Shown piece by piece: positions 5,899 to 32,361 of a DNA stretch of 45,126 nt. Where the stretch lies: positions 19,827 to 64,952 of the forward strand of contig MELE01000120.1 of NCBI GenBank assembly GCA_001768615.1. The letters run 5' to 3'. The DNA comes from Acidobacteria bacterium RIFCSPLOWO2_12_FULL_67_14b. GTDB lineage: Bacteria; Acidobacteriota; Vicinamibacteria; Vicinamibacterales; UBA2999. The notes below the pieces were generated by a model. The model was not told the origin of the DNA. It ran no database searches and was given only the letters and a program-made list of their open reading frames with translations. The translations under genes and the position numbers were made by a program. Positions within the stretch are counted from its first letter, which is position 1. Every line of letters starts with the position of its first letter.

Positions 5899-5953
5899 GT
5901 TTCCTCCTTATCCGGCGCAATTCACTTGGAGCGAGGTGAATTGCCAGTGGCCC

Positions 5954-6003
5954 TCAGCTTTCGGCCTTCAGCCTTCGGCTGAGAGCCGATCGCTGAAAGC
6001 TGA
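5954..6003. repeat. Heptamer-type repeat with 9-bp inverted ends
   Basis: TCAGCTTTC at 5954-5962 pairs exactly with GAAAGCTGA at 5995-6003. The left part reads as consecutive heptamers CAGCTTT, CGGCCTT, CAGCCTT, CGGCTGA (5955-5982), the reverse complement of the GGCTGAA family seen at 16628-16683. It sits between two divergent genes, 56 bp upstream of the M20 gene start, so unlike most repeats here it lies 5' of both neighbours. Confidence 0.7.
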
Positions 6004-16048: not shown

Positions 16049-16605
16049 CGTGATTCGAGCTCGAGCAGCAGCCACGCCTTGGCCGACGCCCATTCACGCT
16101 TGACGGTTGACGGCGAGACGTTCAGGGCGGCGCCTGTCTCATCAACGGTCAGGCCGCCAAAAAACCTCAGCTCGACGATCCGGGCCTGCTGCGGGTCGAG
16201 CGCGGCCAGCCGTTCGAGCGCGCCGTCGAGGGCCTCGATATCCAGACCCTGGGATTGGGCCGCGTCATGGCCGTCGAGGGAGACAATCGTCAGGTCGCCG
16301 CCGCGCTTGTCGCGCCCTCGCTGGCGCGCGTAGTCGACGAGAATCCGCCGCATCAACGTCGCCGCCATCGCAAAGAAATGGGTGCGGTCGGTCCACTGCA
16401 TGCGATCGAGGTCGATCATCCGCAGGTAGGCCTCGTTCACGAGCGCGGTCGTCTGCAGCGTGTGCCCGGGCCGCTCGCCCTTCAGATACCGGTGCGCGAT
16501 CAGCCGCAGCTCGTCGTAGACCAGTGAAACCAGCTCGTCGCGGGCGGAGCTGTCTTTCCGGGCCCAAGCCGCCAGCAGTCTTGAGAGGTCGGAATCGTCG
16601 GCCAC
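16045..16605 (-). CDS. ECF-family RNA polymerase sigma factor
   Basis: A 186-residue sigma-70-type factor of the ECF group found mainly in Acidobacteria and Planctomycetes. Region 2 is represented by TALVNEAYLRMIDLDRMQWTDR and FFAMAATLMRRILVDYARQR; region 4 by QQARIVELRFFGGLTVDETGAALNVSPSTVKREWASAKAWL. The start is GTG 16605; no better upstream codon is seen and the ribosome site is weak. It overlaps the kinase gene by 4 bp, and such kinases are thought to control their linked sigma factor in place of an anti-sigma factor. A heptamer repeat array fills the 77 bp upstream of it. Confidence 0.93.
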   Translation of the reverse strand: MADDSDLSRLLAAWARKDSSARDELVSLVYDELRLIAHRYLKGERPGHTLQTTALVNEAYLRMIDLDRMQWTDRTHFFAMAATLMRRILVDYARQRGRDKRGGDLTIVSLDGHDAAQSQGLDIEALDGALERLAALDPQQARIVELRFFGGLTVDETGAALNVSPSTVKREWASAKAWLLLELESR

Positions 16606-16627: not shown

Positions 16628-16683
16628 GGCTGAAGGCCGATGGCTGAAGGCTGAAGGCTGAAAGCTGAAGGCTGAAAGCTGAT
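16628..16683. repeat. Heptamer tandem array, unit GGCTGAA (8 copies)
   Basis: Eight consecutive 7-bp units: GGCTGAA, GGCCGAT, GGCTGAA three times, AGCTGAA, GGCTGAA, AGCTGAT. The last unit contains the first base of the TAA stop (minus strand, 16683-16685) of the small membrane-protein gene. The array covers most of the spacer to the sigma-factor start. Confidence 0.9.
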
Positions 16684-16868
16684 TAGGCCGATCGACGGCG
16701 GGCCAGTTCGAAGCCCAGGCCGCCCAGCAGCACGAACAGGCCGGTGCCGGTCATGGCCAGCGGCAGCTGGCCGTTGCCGCCGAAATACACGGCGGCCGCC
16801 ATCGACGCCGCGGCCAGCGCCAACACGGTCACGACAGCGGCGGCGGAGGGCTTGGATGGGGTGCTCAT
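16683..16868 (-). CDS. Small two-helix membrane protein
   Basis: A 61-residue protein: a short polar N-terminus (MSTPSKPSAA), a first hydrophobic helix (VVTVLALAAASMAAAVYFGG), a loop GNGQLPLA, and a second helix (GTGLFVLLGGLGFELA) ending in ARRRSA. The ATG at 16868 is preferred over upstream in-frame codons because the extension is polar and not membrane-like. It precedes the ECF sigma factor and might be co-transcribed. A 7-bp inverted repeat CCTCGAG/CTCGAGG (16883-16901) lies just upstream. Family not recognised. Confidence 0.6.
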   Translation of the reverse strand: MSTPSKPSAAAVVTVLALAAASMAAAVYFGGNGQLPLAMTGTGLFVLLGGLGFELARRRSA

Positions 16869-16968
16869 ACCCACGATCTTATCCTCGAGTCGGCCTCGAG
16901 GCCCACGATACGGGCACACCGTGGCGCTTGATGGCCTTACTCCCGGGACCAGATTGTATTGGGTAGTC

Positions 16969-17016
16969 TGATGTCGAAAAGCGATCTTTGACATCAATCC
17001 ATATCTAACGCATCAT
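16969..17016 (+). promoter_or_regulatory. Putative vapBC promoter and operator
   Basis: TTGACA at 16988-16993 is a perfect -35 hexamer; 17 bp downstream CATCAT (17011-17016) matches 4 of 6 positions of the -10. An inverted repeat TGATGTC (16969-16975) / GACATCA (16990-16996) overlaps the -35, a suitable place for autoregulation by the antitoxin. The gene starts at 17023, so the leader would be very short. Confidence 0.5.
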
Positions 17017-17022
17017 TAGCGT

Positions 17023-17250
17023 ATGAGAACAACCATTACACTTGATGATGACATCGTCGAGTTGGTCGCTCGTCACGCCAAGCTCCGGGGCGTCTCTCTG
17101 GGCAAGACCATCTCGGACCTGGTGCGGCGCGGGTTGAGCGCGCCGACGCCCTCGCTGGACAGGAACGGCCTCGTCATGTTCCAGCTCCCCGCTGATTCAC
17201 CGAAGGTGACGACCAAGGAAGTGCGACGGATCGAAGCCGAGGGCGTGTGA
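17023..17250 (+). CDS. vapB: VapB-type ribbon-helix-helix antitoxin
   Basis: A 75-residue antitoxin. The N-terminal MRTTITLDDDIVELV...LRGVSLGKTISDLVRRGL is a ribbon-helix-helix DNA-binding dimerisation domain, and the C-terminal part (VMFQLPADSPKVTTKEVRRIE) is the flexible toxin-binding tail. It would neutralise the PIN nuclease encoded next and bind its own operator. Its stop overlaps the toxin start by 4 bp (GTGA), the standard arrangement. The upstream spacer is noticeably more AT-rich than the surroundings. Confidence 0.92.
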   Translation: MRTTITLDDDIVELVARHAKLRGVSLGKTISDLVRRGLSAPTPSLDRNGLVMFQLPADSPKVTTKEVRRIEAEGV

Positions 17251-17687
17251 GCAGTTATCTGCTCGACACCAACTTGTTGATCGCCCTGCTCTGGCCGAGC
17301 CACGAACAGCACGAATTGGCGGTGGCGTGGTTTGCCCGCCATCGGAGCCGGGGCTGGGCTACGTGTCCGATCACGCAGGCTGGTTTCGTGCGGATCGTGT
17401 CGAACCCGGCCTTCTCACGCGACGCGGTGCAGCCACGCGACGCGACGCAGGTGTTGGTCGCGAACACGGCGGCCAAGGATCACGCGTTGTGGGCCGACGA
17501 TCTGGCCTTCGCGGAGGCCGTGGCGTTTGCCGGCGTGCGCCTGATCGGACATCAACAGGTCACCGACGCCTACCTGCTGGGTCTCGCCATTCGTCACGGC
17601 GGCGTCCTGGCGACCCTGGACCGACAAATCGTGGTGCTCACCGAGCCCAAGACGGCCGCACGAAGGGCTGTCCTGACGGTGAGCTGA
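17247..17687 (+). CDS. vapC: VapC-type PIN-domain ribonuclease toxin
   Basis: A 146-residue PIN-domain toxin that cleaves RNA when freed from VapB. Acidic site residues are recognisable: Asp7 in YLLDTNLLIALLWP, Asp in VTDAYLLGLA and the final Asp in GGVLATLDRQIV. The second acidic position, often Glu in TENGFLR, is Gln here (ITQAGFVRIV), a variant also found in this subgroup. Starts at GTG 17247, overlapping the antitoxin stop. It is convergent with the transglycosylase gene across 83 bp that contain the small inverted repeat CGGGAC/GTCCCG but no U-run. Confidence 0.92.
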   Translation: MSSYLLDTNLLIALLWPSHEQHELAVAWFARHRSRGWATCPITQAGFVRIVSNPAFSRDAVQPRDATQVLVANTAAKDHALWADDLAFAEAVAFAGVRLIGHQQVTDAYLLGLAIRHGGVLATLDRQIVVLTEPKTAARRAVLTVS

Positions 17688-17770
17688 ATGGCCCGGGACG
17701 TCAGTTCATGACGGGTACCCCGCCCGGTCGTGTCCCGATTAGCCTGGCGGATTCGACGGCCTGGCCGGCG

Positions 17771-18781
17771 CTATTCGCCAATGCGGTCGGCGAGCAGACC
17801 GACCGCGAGCGCGTAGGCATGCGCGCAGTTGTAGCCGAGCAGCGTGTCGTAGTTCGGGTAGACCAAATACGTCTTCTTGCCGGCGCGCAGCAGGGAGGCC
17901 ATGCGATCGACCTTCGGCAGCGCGCCGCCGGTGATCGCCCGCACCCCCAGCGATTGCCACTTCGCGAGGGGAATCGCCACCGTGAGCTCGCGTGACGCCC
18001 GGCATCCGCTGTCGCGCAATCCGATCGTCTCGACCAGCGGCGCCGCGCCGCCGGCGGGCAGCTTCACCTGGCGCCCCCACGCCTGGCCCGGCTGCCAGCC
18101 GTACGCCTTCAAGTAGTTGGCAATCGAGGCGAACACGTCGGGCAGCGTGCCCCAGATGTCGCGGCGGCCGTCGCCGTCGAAATCCTGCGCGTGGGCCAGG
18201 TAGGAGGACGGCATGAACTGCGTCTGCCCCATCGCGCCCGCCCACGACCCCTTCATGCGATCGAGGTCGATGTGGCCCTGGTCCACGATCTGCAGCGCGT
18301 CCATCAGCTCGCCGGTGAAGAAGGGGCCGCGCCGGCCCTCCCAGGCGAGCGTGGCCAGGGCCTGCACGGTCGGTCGGGTGCCCGTGAACCGGCCGAAGTT
18401 GGATTCCATCCCCCACACGGCGACGATCAGGCGCGGGGGCGGACCATAGGCCGCGCTCACCTTGCGCAGCACGCCACGATGCGCAGCCGCCTTCTCCCGG
18501 GCCGTGCGCACGAAGGTCCGGGTGAGTCGGCGCTGCAGGTACTGATCGATTGTCAGGACCGTTTCCGCCTGCGTGCGGTCCCGTTCGACTACGACCTCGA
18601 GCGGCTCGAGCGCCGTCAACGCGAGCTCGACGGTGTCGGCGGAAATCCCGCGCGCGAGGGCCTGCGATTTGAGCTCAGTGAGAAACCCGGAGAATTCCGG
18701 ACGCGTCGCCGGAACCACGACTTGCGCCCCGGTGGATGCGGCAGCGAGCACGAGCGCGACGGCAGTAACTTTAAACTTCAA
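17771..18781 (-). CDS. MltB-type lytic murein transglycosylase
   Basis: A 336-residue periplasmic enzyme that cleaves peptidoglycan glycan strands with formation of 1,6-anhydromuramic ends. After the signal peptide (KVTAVALVLAAASTGAQ) the SLT_2/MltB domain shows the catalytic Glu126 in VAVWGMESNFG, the conserved GSWAGAMGQTQFMPSSY block and DFDGDGRRDIW. The C-terminal part has LLGYNCAHAYALAVGLLAD. The start codon is TTG 18781: an in-frame TGA lies two codons upstream, and the first codons (Lys-Phe-Lys) come from the heptamer array that fills the spacer. Last gene of a five-gene minus-strand run. Confidence 0.93.
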   Translation of the reverse strand: MKFKVTAVALVLAAASTGAQVVVPATRPEFSGFLTELKSQALARGISADTVELALTALEPLEVVVERDRTQAETVLTIDQYLQRRLTRTFVRTAREKAAAHRGVLRKVSAAYGPPPRLIVAVWGMESNFGRFTGTRPTVQALATLAWEGRRGPFFTGELMDALQIVDQGHIDLDRMKGSWAGAMGQTQFMPSSYLAHAQDFDGDGRRDIWGTLPDVFASIANYLKAYGWQPGQAWGRQVKLPAGGAAPLVETIGLRDSGCRASRELTVAIPLAKWQSLGVRAITGGALPKVDRMASLLRAGKKTYLVYPNYDTLLGYNCAHAYALAVGLLADRIGE

Positions 18782-18828
18782 ACTTCAAACTTCAACTGTG
18801 AACTCTGAACTGTGAACTGTGAACTTAC
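18766..18828. repeat. Heptamer tandem array, AACTTCA then AACTGTG units
   Basis: The core AACT recurs nine times at 7,7,7,6,7,7,7,7-bp intervals from 18767 to 18822. The units near mltB are AAACTTC; those near the SDR gene are AACTGTG or AACTCTG. One edge contains the SDR stop codon (TAA, 18825-18827), and the other extends into the first codons of mltB, supplying its TTG start. Confidence 0.92.
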
Positions 18829-19613
18829 AAGGCATTCCCCGCCGCACCGTCCACCATTATCGCCTGGCCGCTGATATAGCTGCCGGCCTGAGACGCGAGG
18901 AACACGACCAGGTTCGCGAGCTCTTCCGGCCGGCCGAGCCGACCGAGCGGAATCGTCGCCACCGATGCCTTGCGAACCTCGTCAACGGGCTTGCCGCTCT
19001 TCTGGGCGTTGGCCTGATCGAGCTCGGCAATGCGCTCGGTGTCGATCCGGCCCGGCGCGATCACGTTGACGAGAATGCCTTTCGGGGCGAGCTCCCGTGA
19101 CAGCGTCTTCGCCAGTCCCCACACGCCCGCACGCAGGGCATTCGACAGCGCCAGGTTCGGAATCGGCTGCTTGATCGACGAGGAGGCAATGGTCAGCACG
19201 CGCCCGTACCCGGCCTTCTTCATCTCAGGCACCGCCGCGTGAACGATGCGCGTGAAGCTCAAGAGGTTCTGCTCGAACGCCTTTTGCCACTGCTCGTCGC
19301 TCATCGCGAGGGTCTCGCCCGCGGGAGGACCGCCGGCGTTGTGCACGACGATCTCGAGGCCGCCGTACTCGGCCACGGCGGTATCGACCAGCCGCCTGGC
19401 TTCGGACGCACTGCTCACGTCGGCAGTCAGCGCCTTCACGCGGGCGCCGGTCTCGCGCCGAATCGTCTCGGCGGCCGCCTCGATTCGCGCCTGGTCGCGG
19501 CTGCAGATCACGAGATGGCAGCCCTCGCGCGCCAGTCCCAGAGCCGAGGCATAGCCCAGCCCGCGGCTGGCCGCCATCACGATCGCGCGCTTTCCCTTCA
19601 ATCCGAAATCCAT
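18825..19613 (-). CDS. SDR-family protein with atypical active site
   Basis: A 262-residue short-chain dehydrogenase/reductase-fold protein. Nucleotide-binding features are retained in part: AASRGLG (Gly pattern with Ala for Thr), NNAG-like HNAGG at 91-95, and Ser residues in TIASSSIKQP. The catalytic Tyr-x-x-x-Lys is replaced: aligned to the canonical YSASK it reads Ser157-Asn-Ala-Leu-Arg161. The C-terminal SGQAIMVDGAAGNAL is family-typical. It may be a reductase with different chemistry or a non-catalytic member; a group of similar SDRs with this SNALRAG pattern exists to my knowledge. Flanked on both sides by heptamer arrays. Confidence 0.88.
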   Translation of the reverse strand: MDFGLKGKRAIVMAASRGLGYASALGLAREGCHLVICSRDQARIEAAAETIRRETGARVKALTADVSSASEARRLVDTAVAEYGGLEIVVHNAGGPPAGETLAMSDEQWQKAFEQNLLSFTRIVHAAVPEMKKAGYGRVLTIASSSIKQPIPNLALSNALRAGVWGLAKTLSRELAPKGILVNVIAPGRIDTERIAELDQANAQKSGKPVDEVRKASVATIPLGRLGRPEELANLVVFLASQAGSYISGQAIMVDGAAGNAL

Positions 19614-19621
19614 GGCTGTTT

Positions 19622-19649
19622 GTTATTCGTTATTCGTTATTCGTTATTG
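19622..19649. repeat. Heptamer tandem array, unit GTTATTC (4 copies)
   Basis: GTTATTC three times (19622-19642), then GTTATTG (19643-19649). It fills nearly all of the 30-bp spacer and contains the TAA stop of the DapA-like gene (19644-19646); the terminal Asn-Gln codons are also part of the repeat. Confidence 0.9.
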
Positions 19650-20567
19650 GTTAGAGGCCGGCCGCCGCCTTGGGGCGAGCAGTTCCATGCGCTCGAGGAT
19701 GTCGTCGAGGTCCTTCAGCGTGTCGGCGTCGACGGGCGTGAACGGGGCGCGGACCCGCGCGTGCGCGATCACGCCCCGCAGCTGGTAAATGTGCTTGCGC
19801 AGCGCCAGGTTGATGCGCGGCTGGTTCTCGAAGCGGATGATCGGCAGGAACCCGTAGAACACGTCCGTGGCGCCATCGAGATCGCCGGCGGTGAACCGCG
19901 AGTAGATGTCGACCAGGATCTCGGGGAACGCAAAGCCGGTCATCGTGCCGATGGCGCCGTGCCGCAGCTCTTCGAGGAACATCATGCCGCCCAGCCCGCC
20001 GAAGATCCGGACGTCGGTCGACACCGCGCGGATCTGCGTGATTTTCGTCGGCGCCGGCTCGTCTTCGAGCTTGAGGAACGCGAGCCTCGGCGACGCCGCC
20101 GCCAGCCGCGCAATCAGCTCCACGCTCATCGTGATGCCGCCGACCGCCGGTGGAAAGTCCTGCACGACCACGGGGATGTCGATCGCCTCCGCCACCGCCA
20201 CGTAGTGGCGTTCGAGCGCCGCGTCGTTGGTCCTCGCCAGCCGGGGCGGCGCCACCATCACGGCCTTCGCGCCCAGCTGCTGGGCGCGCCGGCTGTAGGC
20301 GATGCACCCGTCGGTGCCGGCGTGCGTCGTCCCGACGCAGATCGGAAAGTCGGCGCCCGCAGTCTCGATCACGATCGACGTCACGCGATCCCGCTCGGCC
20401 TCGGTCAGCTTGTCGGCCTCGCCCAGCACGCCCAGGATCGTCATGCCGTTGACCCGCGTCCCGCGCGTGAACTCGGTCAGCCGCCGAAGGCTTGGCTCGT
20501 CGAGCGCGCCATCGGGATCGAACGGCGTGGGCGTGATGTTGTAGATCCCGGTCAGGTAGTCAAACAT
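19644..20567 (-). CDS. Dihydrodipicolinate synthase (DapA)-family aldolase
   Basis: A 307-residue TIM-barrel protein of the DapA/N-acetylneuraminate lyase family, which form a Schiff base between a Lys and a keto acid. Lys166 in LAFLKLEDE is the expected catalytic Lys. The other DapA landmarks differ: the GTTGE motif reads GVLGE, and the position of catalytic Tyr133 (YNVP) is Gln in VVQDFP. It is therefore unlikely to be the lysine-pathway enzyme and more likely acts on another keto acid or hydroxy acid. It sits between a dihaem cytochrome and an SDR in one run, which suggests a catabolic role. Confidence 0.86.
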   Translation of the reverse strand: MFDYLTGIYNITPTPFDPDGALDEPSLRRLTEFTRGTRVNGMTILGVLGEADKLTEAERDRVTSIVIETAGADFPICVGTTHAGTDGCIAYSRRAQQLGAKAVMVAPPRLARTNDAALERHYVAVAEAIDIPVVVQDFPPAVGGITMSVELIARLAAASPRLAFLKLEDEPAPTKITQIRAVSTDVRIFGGLGGMMFLEELRHGAIGTMTGFAFPEILVDIYSRFTAGDLDGATDVFYGFLPIIRFENQPRINLALRKHIYQLRGVIAHARVRAPFTPVDADTLKDLDDILERMELLAPRRRPASNQ

Positions 20568-20573
20568 TCGTTC

Positions 20574-20608
20574 TTAACTCTTAACTCTTAACTCTGCACT
20601 CTTAACTC
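20574..20608. repeat. Heptamer tandem array, unit TTAACTC (5 copies)
   Basis: TTAACTC at 20574, 20581 and 20588, TGCACTC at 20595, TTAACTC at 20602. The last base is the first base of the cytochrome stop codon (TAG, 20608-20610). It fills the 40-bp spacer before the DapA-like gene except for seven bases. Confidence 0.9.
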
Positions 20609-21582
20609 TACTTCGCGTCCGGGAACTTGTTCACGCGATTGACCACGGGCTTCAGCGTTCGCAGGTAGGCGTAGATCGCCGACAGGTCCTCGCGGGTCAT
20701 GCCGGCGTACATCGTGATCGGCATCACCGTGTTCTGCCGCCGCTCCGCGTCGCCGAGCTCGGCGTTCGACGGCGTCTCGAACCCCTTGAACCTGTCGATG
20801 AACTGCTGCTCGGTCCACGAGCCGATGCCGGTGTCGGCATCCGGAGTGATGTTGGCCGAGCGCACGCGGTAGCCGGTTTCGATGAACTCCATGCCGCCGA
20901 CGAAGTCGCGGCCGGGGAGCGGCTGTCCGCGATCGTCGATCGGCGTGTGGCAGTCGCTGCAGAGCGCCGCGTCGGTCATGTATTTGCCGTACGCCACCTT
21001 GCTGTCGGGCGACGGCCGCGGCTGGAACGCCGCAGCGGTGGGAATGGTCCGCACGATCAAGTTCATCGGGAATGCCAGCGTGCGATCGGGCACGGCGCCC
21101 TCGATCGCCTTCAGCGATCGGATGTAGGCGAGCACGGCATGCACATCGTCTTCGGACATCTGGCCGAAGTGGGGGTACGGCATCAGGGGGAACAGCGGCG
21201 TGCCGTCGCGCGAGACGCCGGCCGCGACGGCGCGCAGCAGCTCGCCATCCGTCCAGGATCCGATGGCCGCGGGCGTGATGTTCTTGGCGTAGACCACGCC
21301 CGCCCCGCCGAGGTCGAACTTGTCGCCGCCGCGGCCGAGCGTCTCGGGCTTGATCAGACCCGAATAGCGGGTCCAGTCCCGCTGCGAGTGACAGGTCGTG
21401 CACCCGACGACGTGATCGCTGAGGTACTGCCCGCGGGCCAGCCGCTCCGGCGACGGCTCGATCTTGAACGCGGGCGCCGCCGGGACATTCGGATAGACCA
21501 AGTACAGATAGCCGACACCGCAGGCGGCCACGACGACGACCAGCAGCAGCAGAACCAGGATGATTTTTCCGAGTATGCGCAT
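20608..21582 (-). CDS. Membrane-anchored dihaem cytochrome c
   Basis: A 324-residue protein with a single N-terminal hydrophobic anchor (GKIILVLLLLVVVVAACGVGYLYLVY) and two cytochrome c domains on the periplasmic side. Haem motifs are CTTCH (61-65) and CSDCH (208-212); likely Met ligands lie in PLFPLMPYPHF and VMPITMYAGM. It resembles the cytochrome subunits that accept electrons from membrane-linked dehydrogenases. The gene starts 9 bp after the amidohydrolase stop, so the two are probably co-transcribed. No dehydrogenase partner is encoded nearby. Confidence 0.92.
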   Translation of the reverse strand: MRILGKIILVLLLLVVVVAACGVGYLYLVYPNVPAAPAFKIEPSPERLARGQYLSDHVVGCTTCHSQRDWTRYSGLIKPETLGRGGDKFDLGGAGVVYAKNITPAAIGSWTDGELLRAVAAGVSRDGTPLFPLMPYPHFGQMSEDDVHAVLAYIRSLKAIEGAVPDRTLAFPMNLIVRTIPTAAAFQPRPSPDSKVAYGKYMTDAALCSDCHTPIDDRGQPLPGRDFVGGMEFIETGYRVRSANITPDADTGIGSWTEQQFIDRFKGFETPSNAELGDAERRQNTVMPITMYAGMTREDLSAIYAYLRTLKPVVNRVNKFPDAK

Positions 21583-21591
21583 GTCTTTTGG

Positions 21592-23205
21592 CTAATCCTG
21601 CTGATTGGCCGATGTCGTCGGCTTGCGCTGCTTCGCCTGCTCGACCATCGCCGCCACATCGGCGGCCAGTTTCCTGGCATCGTAAACGATGCCGTCCTTG
21701 ATCGTGTACTTGATGCCGCCGACCCGCTCGACCTTGGCCGTCTTGTCGTTCAGCTTTACGGCGCCGGTGGCGTAGAGGACCTTGAAGTTCTCGAGCGGAT
21801 TCTGATCGACGATCACCATGTCGGCGAGCAGCCCGGGCCGGATGATCCCGAAGTCGATCGGCTTGCCTTTCGGCTCCGACAGCGTCAGCGCGCCGTTCAA
21901 CGTCGCGGAACGAATCACCTCGAGCGGATGGAAACCGGCCTCCTGCAGCATCTCGAACTCGTTGATGTAGCCGAAGCCGTAGGTCTGGTAGATGAAGCCG
22001 GAATCCGACCCGGTGGTCACCCGGCCGCCCGCGTTCTTGTAGTCGTTGATGAACGACATCCACACCTGGTAGAACCGCTTCCACTCGATCTCGTCCTCGG
22101 TGGTCCAGTAGAACCAGTAGGCGCCGTGCGCGTTGCGGTTGGGCTGATAGAACGCCCACAGCGACGGCGTCGTGTACTTCTCGTGCCAGTCGGCGTTGCG
22201 CATGCGCATCACGTCGCGGCCCGCCGAATAGATCGTCATCGTCGGATCGAGGACGAACTTGCGGTCGACCCATTCCTTGATCAGCGCGTTCCACGGCTCG
22301 CTGCCGCGCGGGTGGATCTTGTTCCACAACCGCGCGACCTGGCCGAACCGGTGCTGCTCGTCGTTGTAGTTCTGGGTCACCGGGAACGGCTGGACGACGT
22401 TGTCCTTCAGCAGCGCCTCGAACAGGCCGTAGTAGTGCGTCAGCGTGCCCAGGCCCAGGCGGGACGCGTCGCGGGCGTTCATGCGCGCCACGCCCATCTG
22501 GTCGAGGTGGGCGGTCGACCCGAGGTTGAACTTCTTGGCCTCGTCCAGCAGCGCCGCCATGATCTCGGGATCGAGGGCGCCGAGCTTGAGGCCATCCACG
22601 CCTTTCTTGGCCGCGAACCGCACCCACTCGCGCGCGGTCTCGGGCGTTTGCAGGCGCGTGCGGTCCCAGCCTTCACCCGTGAACGGACGGTGGTAGGCGA
22701 AGATGCGCGGCGCGACGATCTGGTTCTTCGCCGACAGCTCGCGCTGCTGCAGGTCCCAGTCCATCGAGCCGCAGGGCACGCCGCGCACGGTGGTGACCCC
22801 GTGCATCATCCAGAGCTTGTAGACATAGTCGGGCTCGCGCGCCTGCCCGCCGCCGCAGTGGACGTGCGCGTCGACGAAGCCGGGCATCAGGTACATCCCG
22901 GTGCCGTCGATCTCTTTCGTGCCCTTCTGCGGACGCGACCGATCGGTGATGGGGACGCCCGGGAACCCCACGCTCGTGACTTCGTGGATGCGGTTCTGCT
23001 GGACGACGACGTCCATCGGGCCGCGCGGCGGGGCGCCGGTGCCGTCGATCACCGTGACCCCGCGGATCACCAGGCGATCGAAAGGCCCCTCGCCGTCACC
23101 CGCCTGCCGCGCCGGCGTCGGGTTCGTCTGCTGGGCCGACAGCGACATGGCCGCGGTCAGGCACGCGGCCGCGCACAACGAAAACCTGCGCCACGATCTC
23201 GACAT
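21592..23205 (-). CDS. Secreted amidohydrolase-family protein
   Basis: A 537-residue metal-dependent hydrolase with a signal peptide (MSRSWRRFSLCAAACLTAAMSLSAQQ). The TIM-barrel metal site is visible: DAHVHCGGG after MPGFV, a Lys in DGLKLGALDP, His in STAHLDQMG and LTHYYGL, and Asp in TGSDSGF. The C-terminal PKGKPIDFGIIRPGLLADMVIVDQNPLENF is the usual composite-domain strand. The start is the ATG at 23205, 7 nt after GGAGGA; an ATG two codons upstream is too close to that site. Family members hydrolyse cyclic amides or peptides (imidazolonepropionase- and prolidase-like); the substrate is not clear. Confidence 0.92.
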   Translation of the reverse strand: MSRSWRRFSLCAAACLTAAMSLSAQQTNPTPARQAGDGEGPFDRLVIRGVTVIDGTGAPPRGPMDVVVQQNRIHEVTSVGFPGVPITDRSRPQKGTKEIDGTGMYLMPGFVDAHVHCGGGQAREPDYVYKLWMMHGVTTVRGVPCGSMDWDLQQRELSAKNQIVAPRIFAYHRPFTGEGWDRTRLQTPETAREWVRFAAKKGVDGLKLGALDPEIMAALLDEAKKFNLGSTAHLDQMGVARMNARDASRLGLGTLTHYYGLFEALLKDNVVQPFPVTQNYNDEQHRFGQVARLWNKIHPRGSEPWNALIKEWVDRKFVLDPTMTIYSAGRDVMRMRNADWHEKYTTPSLWAFYQPNRNAHGAYWFYWTTEDEIEWKRFYQVWMSFINDYKNAGGRVTTGSDSGFIYQTYGFGYINEFEMLQEAGFHPLEVIRSATLNGALTLSEPKGKPIDFGIIRPGLLADMVIVDQNPLENFKVLYATGAVKLNDKTAKVERVGGIKYTIKDGIVYDARKLAADVAAMVEQAKQRKPTTSANQQD

Positions 23206-23382
23206 CAGCATCTCCTCCGGAAAGGCTGCAAGTATATCGCCTTCGCTGGGACCCGACGCTGCAGACCTCAAATGCTTGCCACGGAAACACGGAAGCACGG
23301 AATAAGCAGGAGAAGGCCACGCAGCTCGTGCTCGAACAGGCGGAAGTGCTGGCACCTGAGTGGGCGGTATAGGCTGCCGCTG
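23206..23382. other. Intergenic region upstream of the amidohydrolase
   Basis: This stretch holds the amidohydrolase leader. CACGGAAACACGGAAGCACG (near 23280-23299) contains an approximate 9-bp direct repeat, ACGGAAACACGGAAGC, of the nonamer kind. No convincing coding frame or promoter hexamer pair was seen. Confidence 0.4.
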
Positions 23383-23521
23383 AGAGGCTCAGGAGGCCGA
23401 AGGCCGACTCACACGAGGCGCGACGCGCCGAGTCCGAGGAGCGCCGAAGGCGCGACGCCCACGAGGGCGAAGCCCGAGTCGAGGAGCGCCGAAGGCGCGA
23501 CGGCGAAGCCCGAGTCGATGA
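23383..23521. repeat. TCGACTCGGGCTTCGCC / GCGCCTTCGGCGC repeat cluster
   Basis: Read on the minus strand from the ADOP stop codon: TCGACTCGGGCTTCGCC, then the hairpin unit GTCGCGCCTTCGGCGCTCC, then both again with an 8-bp insertion (CTCGTGGG-like), then degenerate versions (GACTCGGCGCGTCGCGCC, GAGTCGGCCTTCGGCC). The first unit begins two bases after the TAA of the ADOP gene. It has no coding potential of its own and looks like a REP-like, tandemly duplicated dispersed palindrome. Confidence 0.85.
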
Positions 23522-26014: not shown

Positions 26015-26047
26015 AGGGAGGGCCTGACTATATATACGGCCCCGAGG

Positions 26048-26062
26048 GCCTGAAGTTCAGGC
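26048..26062. repeat. 15-bp perfect palindrome over the SDR stop codon
   Basis: GCCTGAA G TTCAGGC is perfectly self-complementary around one central base and contains the TGA stop (26057-26059) of the upstream SDR gene. No U-run follows. It lies 34 bp before the ADOP start, so it could attenuate or separate the two genes. Confidence 0.65.
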
Positions 26063-26860
26063 TTTCCGGTACCGGCGCCCGGCGCTGCCCGACACCCACC
26101 GCGCCAGCCGCTTGGGCAGCACGCCATTCAACCAGATCAGGATTCTGTAAATCCGTCCGTTCACGACCACGGCGTCGCCGGCCATCACGGCCGCGTACCC
26201 TTCCTTCGCCACGGTGGTCGCGTCGAGCCACAACATCGCCGGCACGCGGTTCATCTTGTCGCGGGTGCCGGTGACGTCGTGAAACTCGCTGTAAGTGAAG
26301 CCGGGGGACACGGCCGTCACGTGCACGCCCGTGGCCGCGTTCTCGGCCGACAGCGCCTCGGAGAACCGGATCACGAACGCCTTCGCGGCTCCGTACAGCG
26401 TGTGGCCCGCCGGCGCCGGCACCATGCCGGCAACCGAGGCGATATTGATGATGCGGCCCCATCCCCGCTCGACCATTCCCGGCAACAGCCGGTACGTGAG
26501 ATCGCACACCGCGGTGACCATGATCTGCATGAACCGCTGGTGCTCGGACCACGCCACGTTGGTGTAGCTGCCGGGCACGCCGTAGCCGGCGTTGTTCACC
26601 AGCAGGTCGACCCGGGCGCCGCCCAGCTCCGCGACCATCCGCGCCGGCGCCTCGGGATCCGCCAGATCGGCCACGACGATCCGCGTCGGCACGCCGTGCC
26701 GCGTCGCCAGGTCCGCGGCCAGCGCCTCCAGCCGGTCGCGCCGCCGCGCGGTCAGGATCAGGCCGTAGCCCTTCTCCGCCAGCAGTTCGGCAAACGCCTT
26801 CCCGATCCCTGAAGACGCGCCGGTGACGAGCGCGGTCTTGCCCTCTCCTTCTGGTGCCAT
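26057..26860 (-). CDS. SDR-family oxidoreductase
   Basis: A 267-residue NAD(P)-dependent short-chain dehydrogenase. The cofactor motif is TGASSGIGKAFA, the NNAG motif is LLVNNAGYGVPG, and the catalytic set is complete: Ser in NIASVAGMVP and Tyr-x-x-x-Lys in LYGAAKAF. Unlike the SDR at 18825, the active site is canonical. The C-terminus (ILIWLNGVLPKRLARWVSG) is basic and partly hydrophobic, as in the YqjQ/DltE-like group that uses lipid or keto-acyl substrates. The ATG at 26860 is preceded by GAAGGAGAGGG-like purines inside the codons that follow; upstream signal is weak. Precedes the ADOP gene. Confidence 0.93.
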   Translation of the reverse strand: MAPEGEGKTALVTGASSGIGKAFAELLAEKGYGLILTARRRDRLEALAADLATRHGVPTRIVVADLADPEAPARMVAELGGARVDLLVNNAGYGVPGSYTNVAWSEHQRFMQIMVTAVCDLTYRLLPGMVERGWGRIINIASVAGMVPAPAGHTLYGAAKAFVIRFSEALSAENAATGVHVTAVSPGFTYSEFHDVTGTRDKMNRVPAMLWLDATTVAKEGYAAVMAGDAVVVNGRIYRILIWLNGVLPKRLARWVSGSAGRRYRKA

Positions 26861-26875
26861 GCCCGAGTATACGTA

Positions 26876-26899
26876 GGCGCGGGTCTTAAGACCCGCGCC
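26876..26899. repeat. 24-bp perfect palindrome with GGGTCTTAAGACCC core
   Basis: GGCGCGGGTCTT and its exact reverse complement AAGACCCGCGCC sit back to back. The core matches the hairpin pair at 31146-31198. It lies between divergently transcribed genes, 16 bp upstream of the SDR start and 59 bp upstream of the lipoprotein gene. Confidence 0.85.
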
Positions 26900-26958
26900 C
26901 CAACAGCCGGATGGCGGCGAAGGATATGATGGGTCAGACCTGCCCGGAGGAGACCCAT

Positions 26959-27768
26959 ATGCGTTCGATTCGCGTCCTGCTCGCCCTCGTCTCGTCGATC
27001 GGCCTCGCGGGCTGCATCAACAGCACCACGCTCATCAAGGTCAACGCCGATGGGAGCGGGACGGTGGAACAGACCACGCTGATGAACGTGGCGTCGCTGA
27101 AGGCGATGATGCCCGGCGTGGCCCAGAACGGCCAGGGCCCGAACGTGCTCAACAAGGCCGACCTCGAGCGCACGGCCGCCCGCATGGGCAAGGGCGTGCG
27201 GCTGCTGTCGGCCGAGCCCGCGAAGAACGCCAGCGGCTTCGAGGGCGTGAAGGCGATCTTCGCCTTCGACGACATCAACCAGGTGCAGGTGAGCCAGGAC
27301 CCGGGCATGAGCGGCAGCGCCGACGGCCGCATGTCCTCCGAGCCCACCAAGGACGACCCCGTCAAATTCAAGCTCGCTCGCAACGGCAGCACCTCGGTGC
27401 TGACCATCGCGTTCACCGACAAGCCGGGCGGCGGCGGCGGCAAGCCGCCGGCCGACGCGGGCGATGTCCCCGACCTCACCAACCCGATGATGATGAACAT
27501 GATCAAGACCATGTTCCAGGGCTTCAAGATCAACATCGATCTGGAGGTCGCCGGGCCGATCATCAAGACCAACGCGGAGTACGTGAACGGATCGCGGATC
27601 ACGCTCCTCGAGATGGACATGGAGGCGCTGCTCGCCGACGAGGCGAAGTTCAAGGCGCTGCAGAGCAAGCTGGGGCCCGACGCCTCGCTGTCGGAAGTGA
27701 AGCCTTACCTGAAGGACATCAAGGGCATCAAGATCGACGGGCCTACCATCACCGTCGAGTTCAGGTAG
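26959..27768 (+). CDS. Hypothetical lipoprotein
   Basis: A 269-residue exported protein with a lipobox (VSSIGLAGC, Cys18). The mature part begins INSTTLIKVNADGSGTVEQTTLM, and contains a Gly-rich loop (KPGGGGGKPPADAGD) and a Met-rich stretch (NPMMMNMIKTMFQGFKINID). The C-terminal half alternates hydrophobic strands and ends ITVEFR. The start is ATG 26959 with GGAGGA 8 nt upstream; an earlier in-frame ATG at 26911 would spoil the signal peptide. The family is not recognised. It is followed after a short degenerate repeat by the convergent VPS10-like gene. Confidence 0.75.
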   Translation: MRSIRVLLALVSSIGLAGCINSTTLIKVNADGSGTVEQTTLMNVASLKAMMPGVAQNGQGPNVLNKADLERTAARMGKGVRLLSAEPAKNASGFEGVKAIFAFDDINQVQVSQDPGMSGSADGRMSSEPTKDDPVKFKLARNGSTSVLTIAFTDKPGGGGGKPPADAGDVPDLTNPMMMNMIKTMFQGFKINIDLEVAGPIIKTNAEYVNGSRITLLEMDMEALLADEAKFKALQSKLGPDASLSEVKPYLKDIKGIKIDGPTITVEFR

Positions 27769-27774
27769 AGCGGG

Positions 27775-27802
27775 GAATTGACGATTGACTGATTGTCGAT
27801 TG
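27775..27802. repeat. Degenerate heptamer-like repeat, core ATTG
   Basis: ATTG recurs at 27777, 27784, 27792 and 27799 (intervals 7, 8, 7), in the units GAATTGA, CGATTGA, CTGATTG, TCGATTG. It starts 6 bp after the stop of the lipoprotein gene. Weaker than the other arrays but the same scale and position. Confidence 0.5.
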
Positions 27803-27819
27803 GCAATGCAAGGTACACG

Positions 27820-30800
27820 TTAAGGCCACCGCCCGGGCGTGTAGGCCACGCCCGCCGCTTCCATCTGCTGCTCGAATTTCTTCAACTCGGCCTCCAGCGC
27901 CCTGAGCCTGGTGATCTCGGCGGACAGCTCGTCGAAGGCGATCGCATAGTTCTGCTGCTGCGTGCCGGTGGGCGCGCCGCTCAAGCCGCGCGCACCGGCC
28001 ACCGCGGAGTTGACCCTCGACTGGATGGTCGAGGGCGATCCGGACTCCAGCCCGCGCAGCGTTTCGTCGCCGCGCAGCTTACGCAGCACCGCCGTGACCC
28101 GCTGGTCGAAGCGGACCGCCTCGTCGAGCATCTTGAGATCCGCCGGCGAGTCCACCAGCGCGGCTCGAATCGCGGTGGTCCGCGTCTTCATGCTGTTGGC
28201 CTGCTCCAGCGATCCGGTGATGGACCGCTGGAGCTTCGCGACCTTGTCCTGGTACTCGGTGGCCGCCGTGCGGGCCGTGGGCGACATCGTCGAGGCGGGG
28301 TCGGCCACTACCGTGACCGCCTGCTCGGCGCCGAGCGAGCTCAGCGCGCCATCCATGCGCCGTGACAGCGATACCTTGTAGACGCCCGGCGGCACGAAAC
28401 TGCCGCCGCCGGTGCCTCCCGGAATCGCCGGCGGGTCGGCCTGGCCACCGCCTCCGCCACCACCGCCGCCGAATCCGCCGCCGCCGGTGGTCGCCGGCAC
28501 GCCGCGGAGATTCCAGACGTAGCGATGAATACCGCGTCCGCCCGGCACCGTCAGGCGCCGTGCGACTTTGCCGGAGGCATCCGTCACCGTCAGCAACGTC
28601 TGCGGCGCGTCTTCATCGGCTTCCGCCGTCAGTTCCGCCGGCGTGGGATACTTCGGCGTTTCCTTCTTCTGCTCGGCGGCGCGCGCGGCGTCCTGGCGCC
28701 GCTGCCGCAGCGTCTGCGGCGCTTCCCTGATCCAATAGGTGAAGACGGCGCCCTCGGGCTCGTTCTCCCCCATCCAGAGCTGCTCGCCCTGCGAGCCGCG
28801 CGCCTTGCCCGTTTCGGGAACGGAGAGCAGCGCCGGCTTGCCGGTGAACAGGTGCGCGTCCTTCTGGAACACGGCGGCGGTGGCCTGCCGCAGGGGCGCA
28901 TAGTCATCGAGCACGTAGAAGCCGCGGCCGAACGTGGCCAGCACGAGATCGTCTTCGCGCTCCTGAATCGCCAGGTCGCGCACCGCGATGGTCGGCAGGT
29001 TGGTGCGCAACCGGATCCACTTCTTCCCGCCGTCGGCCGTGAAGAACAACCCGAACTCGGTCCCGCAGAACAGCAGGTCCGGATTGACGTGATCCTCGGC
29101 GAACGACAACGCCGGTCCGTTGGCCGGCAGGTCTCCGGCAATCGACGTCCACGTGGCGCCCCGGTTCGCGCTCTTGAACACGTATGGCTTGAAGTCGCCG
29201 TTCTTGCTGTTCTCGTAGATCGCGTAAACGACGTTCTCGTCGATCTTCGACGCGAAGACACGCTGCACGTAGACGCCGTAGGTCTTGTAGTCGGGCAGGC
29301 CCGGGGGGTTCTCGCTCTTTCGCCAGGTGCCGCCGCCGTCGTAGCTGAACTGGATCAGCCCGTCATCGGTGCCGACATAGAGCAGGCCCTCGCGCTTTCG
29401 CGACTCGCTCAGGGTCGAAATGTTGCCCCAGGTCGCTGTGGATTGATGCTGCGCGATGGCCTCCGGCGGCCACACCCGCCCCATCACGGGCAGCATGTTG
29501 CGGTCGGTCTGCCGCGTCAGGTCGGGGCTGATCGCCCGCCACGTGTTGCCGCGGTCGTCGCTGCGGAACAGCTTGTTGGCGCCGAAGTACAACCGCGCCG
29601 GGTTGTGCGGGCTGATGATGAACGGCGACTCCCAGTTGAATCGCAGCGGCGGCTCGCCCTTGCCTTCCACGGGCCGGATCGACACACGCTCGCTGGTGCG
29701 GCGATCGAGCCGCACGATGCCGCCGTACTGCGATTCCGCGTAGACGATGTTCGGGTCGCTCGGATCGACGCGGGCGACGAAGCCGTCGCCGCCGGTGACG
29801 ATGAACCAGTCGTTGTTGGTCGGCCCCTGCGGGCCGCGCGATCGGGAGGGGCCCCCAAGCGTGCTGTTGTCCTGGGTGCCGCCGTAGATGTTGTAAATCG
29901 GGGAGGCGTTGTCGACATCGACGTTGTAGAACTGCGTCACCGACAGGTTGGTGAAGTGCCGCCACAGGCGGCCGCGGTCCCAGGTTTCGTAGAGCCCGCC
30001 GTCACACCCCTCGAGCAGGTGATCGGTGTTGTCTGGATCGATCCACACGTAGTGATTGTCGACGTGCTTGGATCGTTCGCCGAGGCCGCGGAACGTGCGC
30101 CCGCCATCATCGGACACCTGCGTCTGCACGGTGGGCACGTAGAGCCGATCCGCATTCTTCGGATCGGCGTGGATGTTCTTGTAGTACATCGGCTGCGCCT
30201 GCACGTTGCCGCGGCGCTCCCAACTGTCGCCGGAGTCGGGCGAGGCAAAGATCGCGACCGGCGCGCCGGCCGGTTCCACCTTGGCGTAGACCACGCCCTG
30301 TTTCGCCGGTGAGAACGAGAGCACGATGCGCCCCATATCGCCGCCCGGCAGGCCCTCGCGCACGCGGCGCCACGTCTTGCCGCCGTCGGTCGACTTGTGG
30401 AGCCCGCTCTCGGGCCCGCCGTGGATCAGGGTCCACGCGTGCCGGCGCCGCTGGTGCGCGACGGCCAGCAGCACGTCGGGATCGAACGGATCCATGGCGA
30501 CGTCGCTGATGCCGGTGTGCTCGCTGACCTCGAGCACCTTGGTCCAGCTCTTGCCGCCGTCGATGGTCTTGTAGAGGCCGCGGTCGCCGCCCGACGTCCA
30601 CAGCGGACCGTAGGCGGCGGCGAAGACCACGTCGGAATCCCGCGGATCGATCACGATCCGCCCGATGTGCTCCGACGTCTTGAGGCCGAGGTTGCGCCAC
30701 GTCCGCCCCGCATCGTCGCTGCGGTAGATGCCGTCGCCGTAGCCGACGCTGCGCTGGTTGTTCGCCTCGCCAGTGCCGACCCAGATCGTGCTCGGGGTTT

Positions 30801-31119
30801 TCGGATCGATCACCACCGAGCCCACCGAGTAGGCGCCCTCGTTCTGGAACACCGGCGTCCAGGTGATGCCGGCGTTACTGGTCTTCCACACGCCGCCGGA
30901 GGCCACGCCGACATACCAGGTCTGCTTGTCGGTGGGATGCACCGCGATGTGGCTGATGCGGCCCGACATCAACGCCGGACCAACCGCGCGCAGGCGGAAT
31001 CCGGCGAACGTGCCGGCCGACCACGGGTCCTGCGCGCGGGCGCCGTCTTGCGCCGGCTCCTGGGCGAACACGCCGAGCGATGCGAACAGGACGATGGCGG
31101 CAAGCAGGGCTTTTCTCAT
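27820..31119 (-). CDS. Secreted sortilin/VPS10-like BNR-repeat protein
   Basis: A 1099-residue exported protein with a signal peptide (ALLAAIVLFASLGVFAQ). At least nine Asp-box/BNR motifs of the S-x-D-x-G-x-T-W type are visible, such as SDDAGRTW, TIDGGKSW, STDGGKTW, SPDSGDSW, SDDGGRTF, SDDRGNTW, SYDGGGTW and TADGGKKW, which predict one or two beta-propellers over residues 50-760. A C-terminal region contains a Gly-rich segment (GGGGFGGGGGGGGG) and a predicted helical tail (LQRSITGSLEQANSMKTR). Such proteins are abundant in Acidobacteria and often annotated as glycosyl hydrolases, but no catalytic residues are identified. It lies downstream of three PQQ propeller genes. Confidence 0.9.
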   Translation of the reverse strand: MRKALLAAIVLFASLGVFAQEPAQDGARAQDPWSAGTFAGFRLRAVGPALMSGRISHIAVHPTDKQTWYVGVASGGVWKTSNAGITWTPVFQNEGAYSVGSVVIDPKTPSTIWVGTGEANNQRSVGYGDGIYRSDDAGRTWRNLGLKTSEHIGRIVIDPRDSDVVFAAAYGPLWTSGGDRGLYKTIDGGKSWTKVLEVSEHTGISDVAMDPFDPDVLLAVAHQRRRHAWTLIHGGPESGLHKSTDGGKTWRRVREGLPGGDMGRIVLSFSPAKQGVVYAKVEPAGAPVAIFASPDSGDSWERRGNVQAQPMYYKNIHADPKNADRLYVPTVQTQVSDDGGRTFRGLGERSKHVDNHYVWIDPDNTDHLLEGCDGGLYETWDRGRLWRHFTNLSVTQFYNVDVDNASPIYNIYGGTQDNSTLGGPSRSRGPQGPTNNDWFIVTGGDGFVARVDPSDPNIVYAESQYGGIVRLDRRTSERVSIRPVEGKGEPPLRFNWESPFIISPHNPARLYFGANKLFRSDDRGNTWRAISPDLTRQTDRNMLPVMGRVWPPEAIAQHQSTATWGNISTLSESRKREGLLYVGTDDGLIQFSYDGGGTWRKSENPPGLPDYKTYGVYVQRVFASKIDENVVYAIYENSKNGDFKPYVFKSANRGATWTSIAGDLPANGPALSFAEDHVNPDLLFCGTEFGLFFTADGGKKWIRLRTNLPTIAVRDLAIQEREDDLVLATFGRGFYVLDDYAPLRQATAAVFQKDAHLFTGKPALLSVPETGKARGSQGEQLWMGENEPEGAVFTYWIREAPQTLRQRRQDAARAAEQKKETPKYPTPAELTAEADEDAPQTLLTVTDASGKVARRLTVPGGRGIHRYVWNLRGVPATTGGGGFGGGGGGGGGQADPPAIPGGTGGGSFVPPGVYKVSLSRRMDGALSSLGAEQAVTVVADPASTMSPTARTAATEYQDKVAKLQRSITGSLEQANSMKTRTTAIRAALVDSPADLKMLDEAVRFDQRVTAVLRKLRGDETLRGLESGSPSTIQSRVNSAVAGARGLSGAPTGTQQQNYAIAFDELSAEITRLRALEAELKKFEQQMEAAGVAYTPGRWP

Positions 31120-31145
31120 GGCGGGGTGATTATAGTTCGCGCGCC

Positions 31146-31198
31146 AGGCGGGTCTAAAGACCCGCCTCCACGCGAAAGGCGGGTCTGAAGACCCGCCT
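31146..31198. repeat. Tandem pair of AGGCGGGTCT hairpins
   Basis: AGGCGGGTCT-AA-AGACCCGCCT (31146-31167) and AGGCGGGTCT-GA-AGACCCGCCT (31177-31198) are perfect 10-bp-arm palindromes separated by CCACGCGAA. On the minus strand, TTCGCGTAG or TTCGCGTGG precedes each hairpin, giving a 31-bp direct repeat. The first copy includes the last codons (Phe-Ala) and the TAG stop of the PQQ gene. Confidence 0.88.
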
Positions 31199-32326
31199 CT
31201 ACGCGAAGCAGAGCAGGCGGCCTTCGGTCGATCCGATCACCAGTCGACCCGAGGCGAGCGCGGGCGACGCGGTGAGCGCGGCGCCCTCGTCGTGTTCCCA
31301 CACCACTTTTCCGCTGGCGAGATCCAGCGCGTAGAGCCGGCCGTCGTTCGATCCCACGTAGACGCGGCCGGCGGCGACGGCGGGCGACGAGTCGATGCGC
31401 GCGCGCGTCATGTAGGTCCACCGCGCCTTGCCCGACTTGGCATCGAGCGCGTGCACCATCCGATCGCGGCCGCCCAGCACGACCAGGCCATCGACCACCG
31501 CCGCGGACGAGTAGAACGGAAACTTCCGATCGGGATGCTCGTAGCGCCACAACACCTTGCGCGACTTCAGGTCGAGCGCGAGGACCTGGTTGTCGAAGGT
31601 CCCGAAGTAGGCGACCCCGTCGACCATGGCCACCGACGCGCCGGTGTAGGCGGTGGCCGAGGTCGCCAACTGCTCCCGCCCCGTCTTCACGTCGACGGCG
31701 TGAAACACCTCGTCGCAGCCCGCGAAATGCGCCGCGCTGCCGACGATGCACGGCGTGCCGTGTACGTAGTTCTCGGTGGCGTAGGCCCACTGCTGCTTGC
31801 CGGTTGCGGCGTGGATCCCGTACAGCCTGCCGTCGTACGAACCCATCAACACGGTGTCGCCGACGACGACCGGAGACGACTTGATTTCGGATTGGGTCTT
31901 GAACGTCCACTGGGGCTTGCCGTCGGCGATGCCGACGGCGTGCACGACGCCGAGCAGATCGCCGATGAACACGCGGCCGCCCACCACAGCCGGAGACGAC
32001 TCGCCGATCGACTCGCCGGCCTGGTAGCGCCAGCGCAGCTTGCCGTCGGCGAGGCCGACCGCGATGAGTTCGCCCGTTGCGGTGCCGACGTAGACGACGC
32101 CGTCGACGATGGCGGCGGAGGAATCGAACGCCTCGCCGCCTTCCCAGGCCCACGCCAGCTTCGGGGCCGGTGCGATGGTCGTGGCCGAGACGCCGGTGAG
32201 GGATGGGGAGCCCCGGAACTGCGGCCACGCATCGGCCGGCGCCATCGGCGCGGGCCTGGACTGCGCGACGACGCGTGGGACCAGCGCGAGCGCGCCGCAG
32301 GCACCGAGAAAATCGCGGCGGTTCAC
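31199..32326 (-). CDS. Tat-exported PQQ-like beta-propeller protein
   Basis: A 375-residue protein. Its N-terminus NRRDFLGACGALALVPRVVAQ is a twin-arginine signal, so it is exported folded. The rest is repeated propeller blades with the pattern G-x-x-Y/V-h-x(4)-G-x-h-x-A-h/L-D-x-x-x-G, for example GVVYVGTATGELIAVGLADGKLRW and GRVYVGSNDGRLYALDLASGKVVW, about seven blades. PQQ-binding residues were not verified, so enzymatic activity is uncertain; such proteins may be scaffold or sensor-like. The start is the GTG at 32326; the open frame upstream reads through a heptamer array and the neighbouring gene. Confidence 0.9.
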   Translation of the reverse strand: MNRRDFLGACGALALVPRVVAQSRPAPMAPADAWPQFRGSPSLTGVSATTIAPAPKLAWAWEGGEAFDSSAAIVDGVVYVGTATGELIAVGLADGKLRWRYQAGESIGESSPAVVGGRVFIGDLLGVVHAVGIADGKPQWTFKTQSEIKSSPVVVGDTVLMGSYDGRLYGIHAATGKQQWAYATENYVHGTPCIVGSAAHFAGCDEVFHAVDVKTGREQLATSATAYTGASVAMVDGVAYFGTFDNQVLALDLKSRKVLWRYEHPDRKFPFYSSAAVVDGLVVLGGRDRMVHALDAKSGKARWTYMTRARIDSSPAVAAGRVYVGSNDGRLYALDLASGKVVWEHDEGAALTASPALASGRLVIGSTEGRLLCFA

Positions 32327-32333
32327 GATTCGT

Positions 32334-32361
32334 TTCTGCCTTCTGCCTTCTGCCTTGTTAC
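32334..32361. repeat. Heptamer tandem array, unit TTCTGCC (4 copies)
   Basis: TTCTGCC at 32334, 32341 and 32348, followed by TTGTTAC (32355). The last unit contains the TAA stop (32358-32360) of the upstream PQQ gene. The array fills the spacer up to the Tat-signal start codon. Confidence 0.9.

Follow-up and report, generated by a model that had tools for sequence, protein, structure and literature searches.

Dispersed heptamer arrays between the genes of an acidobacterium, a repeat type known from cyanobacteria and other bacteria

Heptanucleotides are the commonest repeats with units of 5–11 nt in most prokaryotic genomes, for which slippage and the footprint of the polymerase have been suggested as causes, according to PMC4679880 and PMC4692102, which cite a 2007 survey; both attribute the class, LSSR5-11, to Mrazek and colleagues 2007, and PMC12699852 reports that repeats of 6–9 bp are enriched in many prokaryotic phyla. 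The excerpted text of these three papers contains no discussion of Acidobacteriota. Cyanobacterial STRR sequences are 7-bp repeats, some of which form hairpins near the 3' end of genes, and roles in transcript stability, translational coupling or termination have been suggested for them (PMC2670836). Here we describe arrays of tandem heptamers in the spacers of a 45,126-nucleotide stretch of the genome of Acidobacteria bacterium RIFCSPLOWO2_12_FULL_67_14b (hereafter the window, G000:C120:19827-64952), in the draft genome to which it belongs (G000; 5.3 Mb in 258 contigs, completeness 92%) and in other genomes. We consider it probable that these arrays are dispersed families of simple sequence repeats of the LSSR5-11/STRR kind, whose unit measures 7 nt here and in certain relatives 8 or 9 nt, and which would be shaped by growth through slippage, ectopic copying and selection.

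Other described systems bear on this comparison. The TAACTGA repeats of Beggiatoaceae, cyanobacteria and Bacteroidetes occur as heptamer arrays at over 100 sites, have a patchy distribution among phyla and differ between strains by indels in steps of 7 nt (PMC4679880). GGGAATC in Xanthomonas and GGGGA(T/C)T in Nostoc are intergenic heptamers that vary in length and sequence at orthologous sites and occasionally form inverted pairs (PMC4692102). REP and REPIN sequences, which occur with RAYT transposases, are dispersed, intergenic, hairpin-forming families (PMC3116915).

An initial annotation of the window, made from the sequence alone, had proposed five spacers of tandem heptamers, and all five were recovered in place (Table 1) by both Tandem Repeats Finder and an independent lag scan of the spacers. 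They are the top five period-7 segments of the window's spacers, with lag-7 scores of 34.5, 30.5, 21, 18.5 and 16, compared to approximately 0.1 segment scoring at least 10 in shuffled window spacers. All five are intergenic, and three occupy, as had also been proposed, consecutive spacers of one minus-strand run comprising genes for an SLT_2 transglycosylase, an SDR protein, a DHDPS-family (dapA-like) protein and a cytochrome c. Two additional sites put forward at the same time are weak when taken alone: that at 5955-5982 has a score of only 9 and is one arm of a hairpin with GGCTGAA-type arms, and the degenerate ATTGACG array, which contains an indel, falls below the lag threshold, its unit recurring as a clean array at another locus of the genome (L162). 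No Rfam family was matched within the window.

The preference for a 7-nt unit extends well beyond the window. Our main census covered the spacers within approximately 2.4 Mb from eleven genomes, to which G000 contributed 558 kb, with genes called by a small home-made script based on a codon model, which recovered the window's conserved genes. The lag scan found 1, 2, 28, 5, 9, 0, 1 and 1 intergenic arrays of periods 5 to 12 in G000, hence period 7 is ahead of 6, 8 and 9, the comparison that had been set beforehand, and heptanucleotides are the commonest units outside genes, as in LSSR5-11; tandem runs of 5–11 nt units are also longer in this genome than expected by chance. Exact arrays in 276 kb of G000 comprised 13 of period 7, four of period 9 and none of periods 5, 6, 8, 10 or 11, compared to a single period-7 array in three order-4 Markov simulations taken together. 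In a 1.4 Mb part of the sample, shuffles of whole sequences (an earlier run) yielded 0 to 6 arrays per period, and the periods of arrays in coding sequence were mostly multiples of three. Among 80 loci from other phyla, chosen for carrying the unit AAGGCAG, the remaining intergenic arrays numbered 93, 23 and 8 for periods 7, 8 and 9, compared to 1 for period 6 and 5 for period 10.

The favoured window of periods is 7 to 9, and the mix within it varies by species. For periods 5 to 12 the counts of intergenic arrays were 0, 0, 34, 3, 3, 4, 0, 5 in G001; 0, 0, 43, 6, 0, 0, 0, 0 in G026, a relative from the same order; 0, 0, 22, 0, 0, 0, 0, 0 in G038; 0, 0, 10, 11, 2, 0, 0, 0 in G003; 0, 2, 5, 5, 8, 1, 0, 0 in G004; and 0, 0, 11, 8, 6, 0, 1, 0 in G007. 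Congeners mix periods 7, 8 and 9, with almost nothing at 5, 6, 10 and 11, and a pooled contrast in period of G003, G004 and G007 with G000, G001, G026 and G038 gave a chi-square of 45, the p-value of which should not be taken at face value as the groups were chosen post hoc and members of one array family do not count as independent. The first orthologous spacers had hinted at one period per genome without exception, an idea we rejected since G003, G004 and G007 each hold periods 7, 8 and 9. The conserved period of the initial annotation survives in a looser form: 7 strongly exceeds 5, 6, 10 and 11 in the sample as a whole, but it is not rigid, as congeners use 8 and 9 and some orthologous spacers differ in both period and unit.

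The units were also described initially as unrelated and their sequence as free. They are indeed unrelated between the five sites of the window, but genome-wide each unit tested is one of many copies, and recurrence on this scale contradicts free sequence. Exact three-copy overlapping matches in G000 number 98 for AAGGCAG, the unit of the TTCTGCC array at 32334-32356, 30 for GGCTGAA and 10 for TAACGAA, and 0 for the same patterns written backwards; the GTTATTC/TAACGAA unit is present at six sites in this genome. Counting pairs of arrays that lie in separate spacers of one genome, 158 have the same unit, compared to a mean of 8.6 and a maximum of 17 for letter-shuffled units. Vocabularies differ between species, G004 having 9-mers of the CCTAGGCAC type, G003 having AAGTGAG and ACGGCCCG, and G001 having AAGGCAG, AAAGTTG and AACCAAT. 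The units form dispersed families that are patchily common to other phyla: in a sample of 149 genomes from across the phylum, arrays of AAGGCAG were detected in only 4, one distant member having 82 matches, and the hosts among matches listed in species genomes include cyanobacteria, Bacteroidota, Verrucomicrobia-type bacteria, Nitrospirae and others.

Where GGCTGAA arrays can be read in context their flanks are unrelated from site to site, so no larger element acts as carrier and what has been dispersed is the array itself. A comparison of masked flanks across all array-bearing spacers of G000 gave 11 short matches, most of which we attribute to leftover CACGAAG-family units and to a separate palindromic repeat. 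The 9-mer family CACGAAGRN and its relatives form long imperfect hairpins in G000 at L009:7490-7559, L011:14050-14171 and L166:3459-3577.

Many arrays are paired. An inverted partner is present in the same spacer for 88 of 222 arrays (approximately 40%), compared to 16.2 when arrays were tested on other spacers of that genome, and in G001 the proportion is 31 of 39. Together with the dispersal of units between unrelated flanks and the presence of Y1_Tnp genes in 12 of 12 genomes searched, this pairing would fit hairpins that a transposase mobilises by copying, in the way RAYT/TnpA_REP enzymes act on REPs; two-arm arrays would then be the mobile form and single arms its decay products. We regard this as rather unlikely, however, as the number of Y1_Tnp genes does not follow array density (G001, among the densest, has one copy, G007 has 13, and G002, with few arrays, has one), no fixed tetranucleotide or target was seen beside the arrays, a single genome contains many units side by side, and in Cyanobacteria and Bacteroidota arrays of the same unit are mostly single-armed. 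For the unit AAGGCAG, inverted partners were found at 5 of 12 acidobacterial loci compared to 1 of 36 cyanobacterial loci. REPs are not built of tandem heptamers, and although the arrays resemble REP/REPIN families in being dispersed, intergenic and hairpin-forming, they lack the non-tandem palindrome with a fixed 5' tetranucleotide, being tandem with flanks that differ at each site. In G004 (L096:4463-4990), inverted 8- and 9-mer arrays flank a segment of approximately 340 bp, as if around an insert.

The arrays are placed preferentially 3' of genes and next to stop codons: 41 are no more than 5 nt from a stop codon, compared to 22.8 under random placement in their own spacers, and 10 within 5 nt of a start codon, compared to 15.7. 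Array-bearing spacers per kb amount to 1.69 in convergent, 1.14 in co-directional and 0.51 in divergent arrangement. In the window the dapA-like gene ends with TAACCAA TAACGAA TAACGAA and the cytochrome c gene with TAGAGT TAAGAGT, so that the stop codon lies in or at the first unit. We rejected the idea that stop codons borne by the units act as an all-frame terminator, as the signal is too weak (35 of 96 units in sense, 21 in antisense).

This placement raises the question of whether selection keeps the arrays as 3' RNA elements (terminators or RNase barriers) whose unit is free because only the stem matters. The abutment of stop codons and the depletion in divergent spacers are compatible with such a role, as are the enrichment of hairpins in convergent spacers (among spacers of 60–200 nt, 27 of 37 with inverted partners, compared to 29 of 69 co-directional ones, p=0.004), the purine-richness of stop-attached arrays in the sense orientation (69 vs 24, with the stop codon itself as a partial confounder) and the STRR hairpins known between cyanobacterial genes (PMC2670836). 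However, approximately 60% of arrays have no partner and a single-arm array tested, from the dapA-like spacer (20572-20609), is predicted to be unstructured; differences between arms in G001 examples compared by eye preserve pairing inconsistently, pointing both ways; orthologous spacers often have no array; and the requirement for a stem leaves the 7-nt period unexplained. As an account of the arrays we find it distinctly unlikely. In a secondary role, two-arm arrays, which are commoner in convergent spacers, probably act as 3' hairpins, terminator-like or RNA-stabilising, and single-arm arrays in tight operons are probably neutral spacer filler; the predicted folds of paired arrays reach -54.7 and -55.8 kcal/mol (z -8 to -9). 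The convergent excess of partners would fit strong hairpins being either avoided inside operons or used at transcript ends.

By analogy with a proposal made for TAACTGA in Beggiatoaceae, the heptamers could instead be sites of a repeat-binding regulator. One unit does occur at many genes, and some arrays end 4–8 nt before a start codon, but arrays avoid start codons overall, several units coexist, and congeners have either an unrelated unit or no array in the corresponding spacer, which makes this very improbable.

Orthologous spacers give some indication of how arrays change. The spacer 3' of the dapA-like gene contains GTTATTC in G000, a relative of GTTATTC in G001, AGTTGAA/AGTTTC in G004 (a 6-mer array), an 8-mer in G007 and degenerate 9-mers, judged by eye, in G002, G005 and G008; the CACGAAGRN-type 9-mer family is noted at the spacer in these last three genomes as well. 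The cytochrome c spacer has TTAACTC in G000, its two-arm form in G001 and 8-mers in G007 and G003, the others having almost no spacer, and G001 carries AACTTTC at the spacer orthologous to 18767-18825. Among 239 pairs of orthologous spacers there are 19 in which both members contain arrays; most of the 19 differ in unit and about a dozen in period. The excess of shared arrays over independence (odds ratio approximately 2, p approximately 0.05, on pairs that are not independent) is too weak for the strong conservation of sites between species that we had considered as a candidate, and spacers are at most weakly predisposed to arrays.

Within arrays of at least six copies, identity between copies falls from.887 at a distance of one unit to.853,.798,.742 and.706 at two to five units; detection by a one-unit lag inflates the first value, leaving the fall from two to five units unaffected. 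Such decay is expected when copies arise from their neighbours, and local growth by slippage, one of the two generators named initially, may be regarded as well supported, if indirectly, by these comparisons. The window offers an example of change along an array, AACTTCA passing in phase into AACTGTG. Loss of mismatch repair was rejected as a cause, as G000 has MutS and so do 79 of 80 genomes. The other generator, a reverse transcriptase or other templated addition that writes arrays, would explain the same unit being found in many places, but RVT_1 was not found in G000 (at the completeness given above) nor in 9 of 11 other genomes, including the array-rich G026 and G038; templated addition by known reverse transcriptase families is already largely refuted, and we consider templated writing as a whole extremely improbable.

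The account that we favour would combine three processes. Arrays would grow and shrink by replication slippage that is most efficient at loops of 7–9 nt; an ectopic copying step (template switching, gene conversion or hairpin mobilisation) would seed the unit at new sites and in inverted orientation; and selection would purge arrays from coding sequence and promoters, tolerating those that lie downstream of a stop codon and ahead of the following gene. Several points weigh against it. Slippage alone leaves the recurrence of one unit at dozens of sites unexplained, and the differing 7:8:9 mix among congeners is not what a fixed footprint of the polymerase predicts. The abutment of stop codons is partly mechanical, because an open reading frame (ORF) that enters a heptamer array containing a stop ends there; moreover genes were called with a home-made script, and the assigned start codons are uncertain. 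A more radical version, which we think doubtful, is that the arrays are a selfish element of less than 100 bp spreading as an array or inverted pair without flanks, each genome having a vocabulary that distant phyla share through descent or transfer; whether the unit has 7, 8 or 9 nt would depend on a host factor that is not the same in all congeners.

Among described systems, dispersed repeat families of the kind we favour stand closest to LSSR5-11, with which they share period 7 as the most abundant, intergenic location, many loci and slippage as the proposed origin; the measured per-genome vocabulary, frequent inverted pairing, stop-codon preference and species-dependent mix of 7, 8 and 9 are points of difference. 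The likeness to cyanobacterial STRR drawn in the initial annotation is apt, as both consist of 7-bp tandem units in spacers, with several unit families per genome and some copies forming hairpins near gene 3' ends, although the host here is acidobacterial rather than a filamentous or heterocystous cyanobacterium and hairpins look more frequent. TAACTGA repeats are alike in forming heptamer arrays at many sites, patchily across phyla, but they consist of one unit lying mostly just upstream of starts, a position that is under-represented among the many units here, which prefer stop codons. GGGAATC and GGGGA(T/C)T are similarly intergenic heptamers with variation at orthologous sites and inverted pairs, but they form G-quadruplexes, whereas most units described here have no G-tract.

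Table 1. Heptamer arrays and other features of the window
Feature	Position	Strand	Context	Method or remark
7-mer array GGCTGAA x7.9 (+ strand; TTCAGCC in sense of flanking minus-strand genes)	16628-16682	-	Between stop of small ORF 16683-16868 and ECF sigma factor gene 16045-16605	Tandem Repeats Finder
Two in-phase 7-mer arrays, AACTTCA x4.1 into AACTGTG x4.6	18767-18795 and 18794-18825	-	SDR stop codon towards SLT_2 transglycosylase gene	
7-mer array GTTATTC x4.6 (sense TAACGAA)	19622-19653	-	From DHDPS stop codon to 8 nt before SDR start	Tandem Repeats Finder
7-mer array TCTTAAC x5.4 (sense TAAGAGT)	20572-20609	-	Overlaps cytochrome c stop codon; ends 4 nt before DHDPS start	Tandem Repeats Finder; single arm
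7-mer array TTCTGCC x3.3 (sense GGCAGAA)	32334-32356	-	After stop of PQQ beta-propeller gene 32358-33779	
Degenerate ATTGACG array	27777-27802		Convergent spacer	85% matches, 10% indels
Hairpin with GGCTGAA-type heptamer arms	5949-6001		Divergent spacer	-31.8 kcal/mol, z -3.8
Toxin-antitoxin-like pair	17023-17687		Between small ORF 16683-16868 and SLT_2 gene	RHH_1 then PIN domain
Protein kinase and ECF sigma factor segment	13505-16605			Pkinase with TPR
Palindrome GCGGGTCTWWAGACCCGC, first copy	26879-26896			Near-perfect
Palindrome GCGGGTCTWWAGACCCGC, second copy	31148-31165		Inside 31-bp tandem duplication 31146-31207	Near-perfect
45–48 bp tandem repeat	23391-23502			On palindrome GCGCCGAAGGCGCGA

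Two differences in gene content lie close to the arrays. In place of the toxin-antitoxin-like pair, the corresponding spacer of G001, which is short, has an array of the heptamer GCCTTCT. The kinase and sigma factor segment lies between genes that are approximately 500 nt apart in 8 of 8 congeners, and is either a recent insertion or a loss in multiple species.

The window also contains repeats of other kinds. The palindrome GCGGGTCTWWAGACCCGC was found at 6 places in 5 of the loci covered from the genus, compared to a chance expectation of 0 in the window, and is a dispersed REP-like palindrome separate from the heptamers; at 12545-12693 of L109 in G001, a heptamer hairpin lies within the loop of a palindrome of this type. 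The tandem repeat built on GCGCCGAAGGCGCGA is likewise dispersed, being present also in L003, L077 and L300.

Why bacterial intergenic repeats prefer a 7-nt unit is an old, untested question, for which close relatives with different 7:8:9 mixes, and in some cases different units and periods in orthologous spacers, provide a natural experiment. The presence of one heptamer at dozens of sites with no shared flank calls for a copying mechanism beyond slippage. What these genomes contribute is hosts and anatomy for a known class of repeat rather than a new class or system: a repeat type familiar from other bacteria, cyanobacteria among them, has a large and previously unremarked outpost in acidobacteria.

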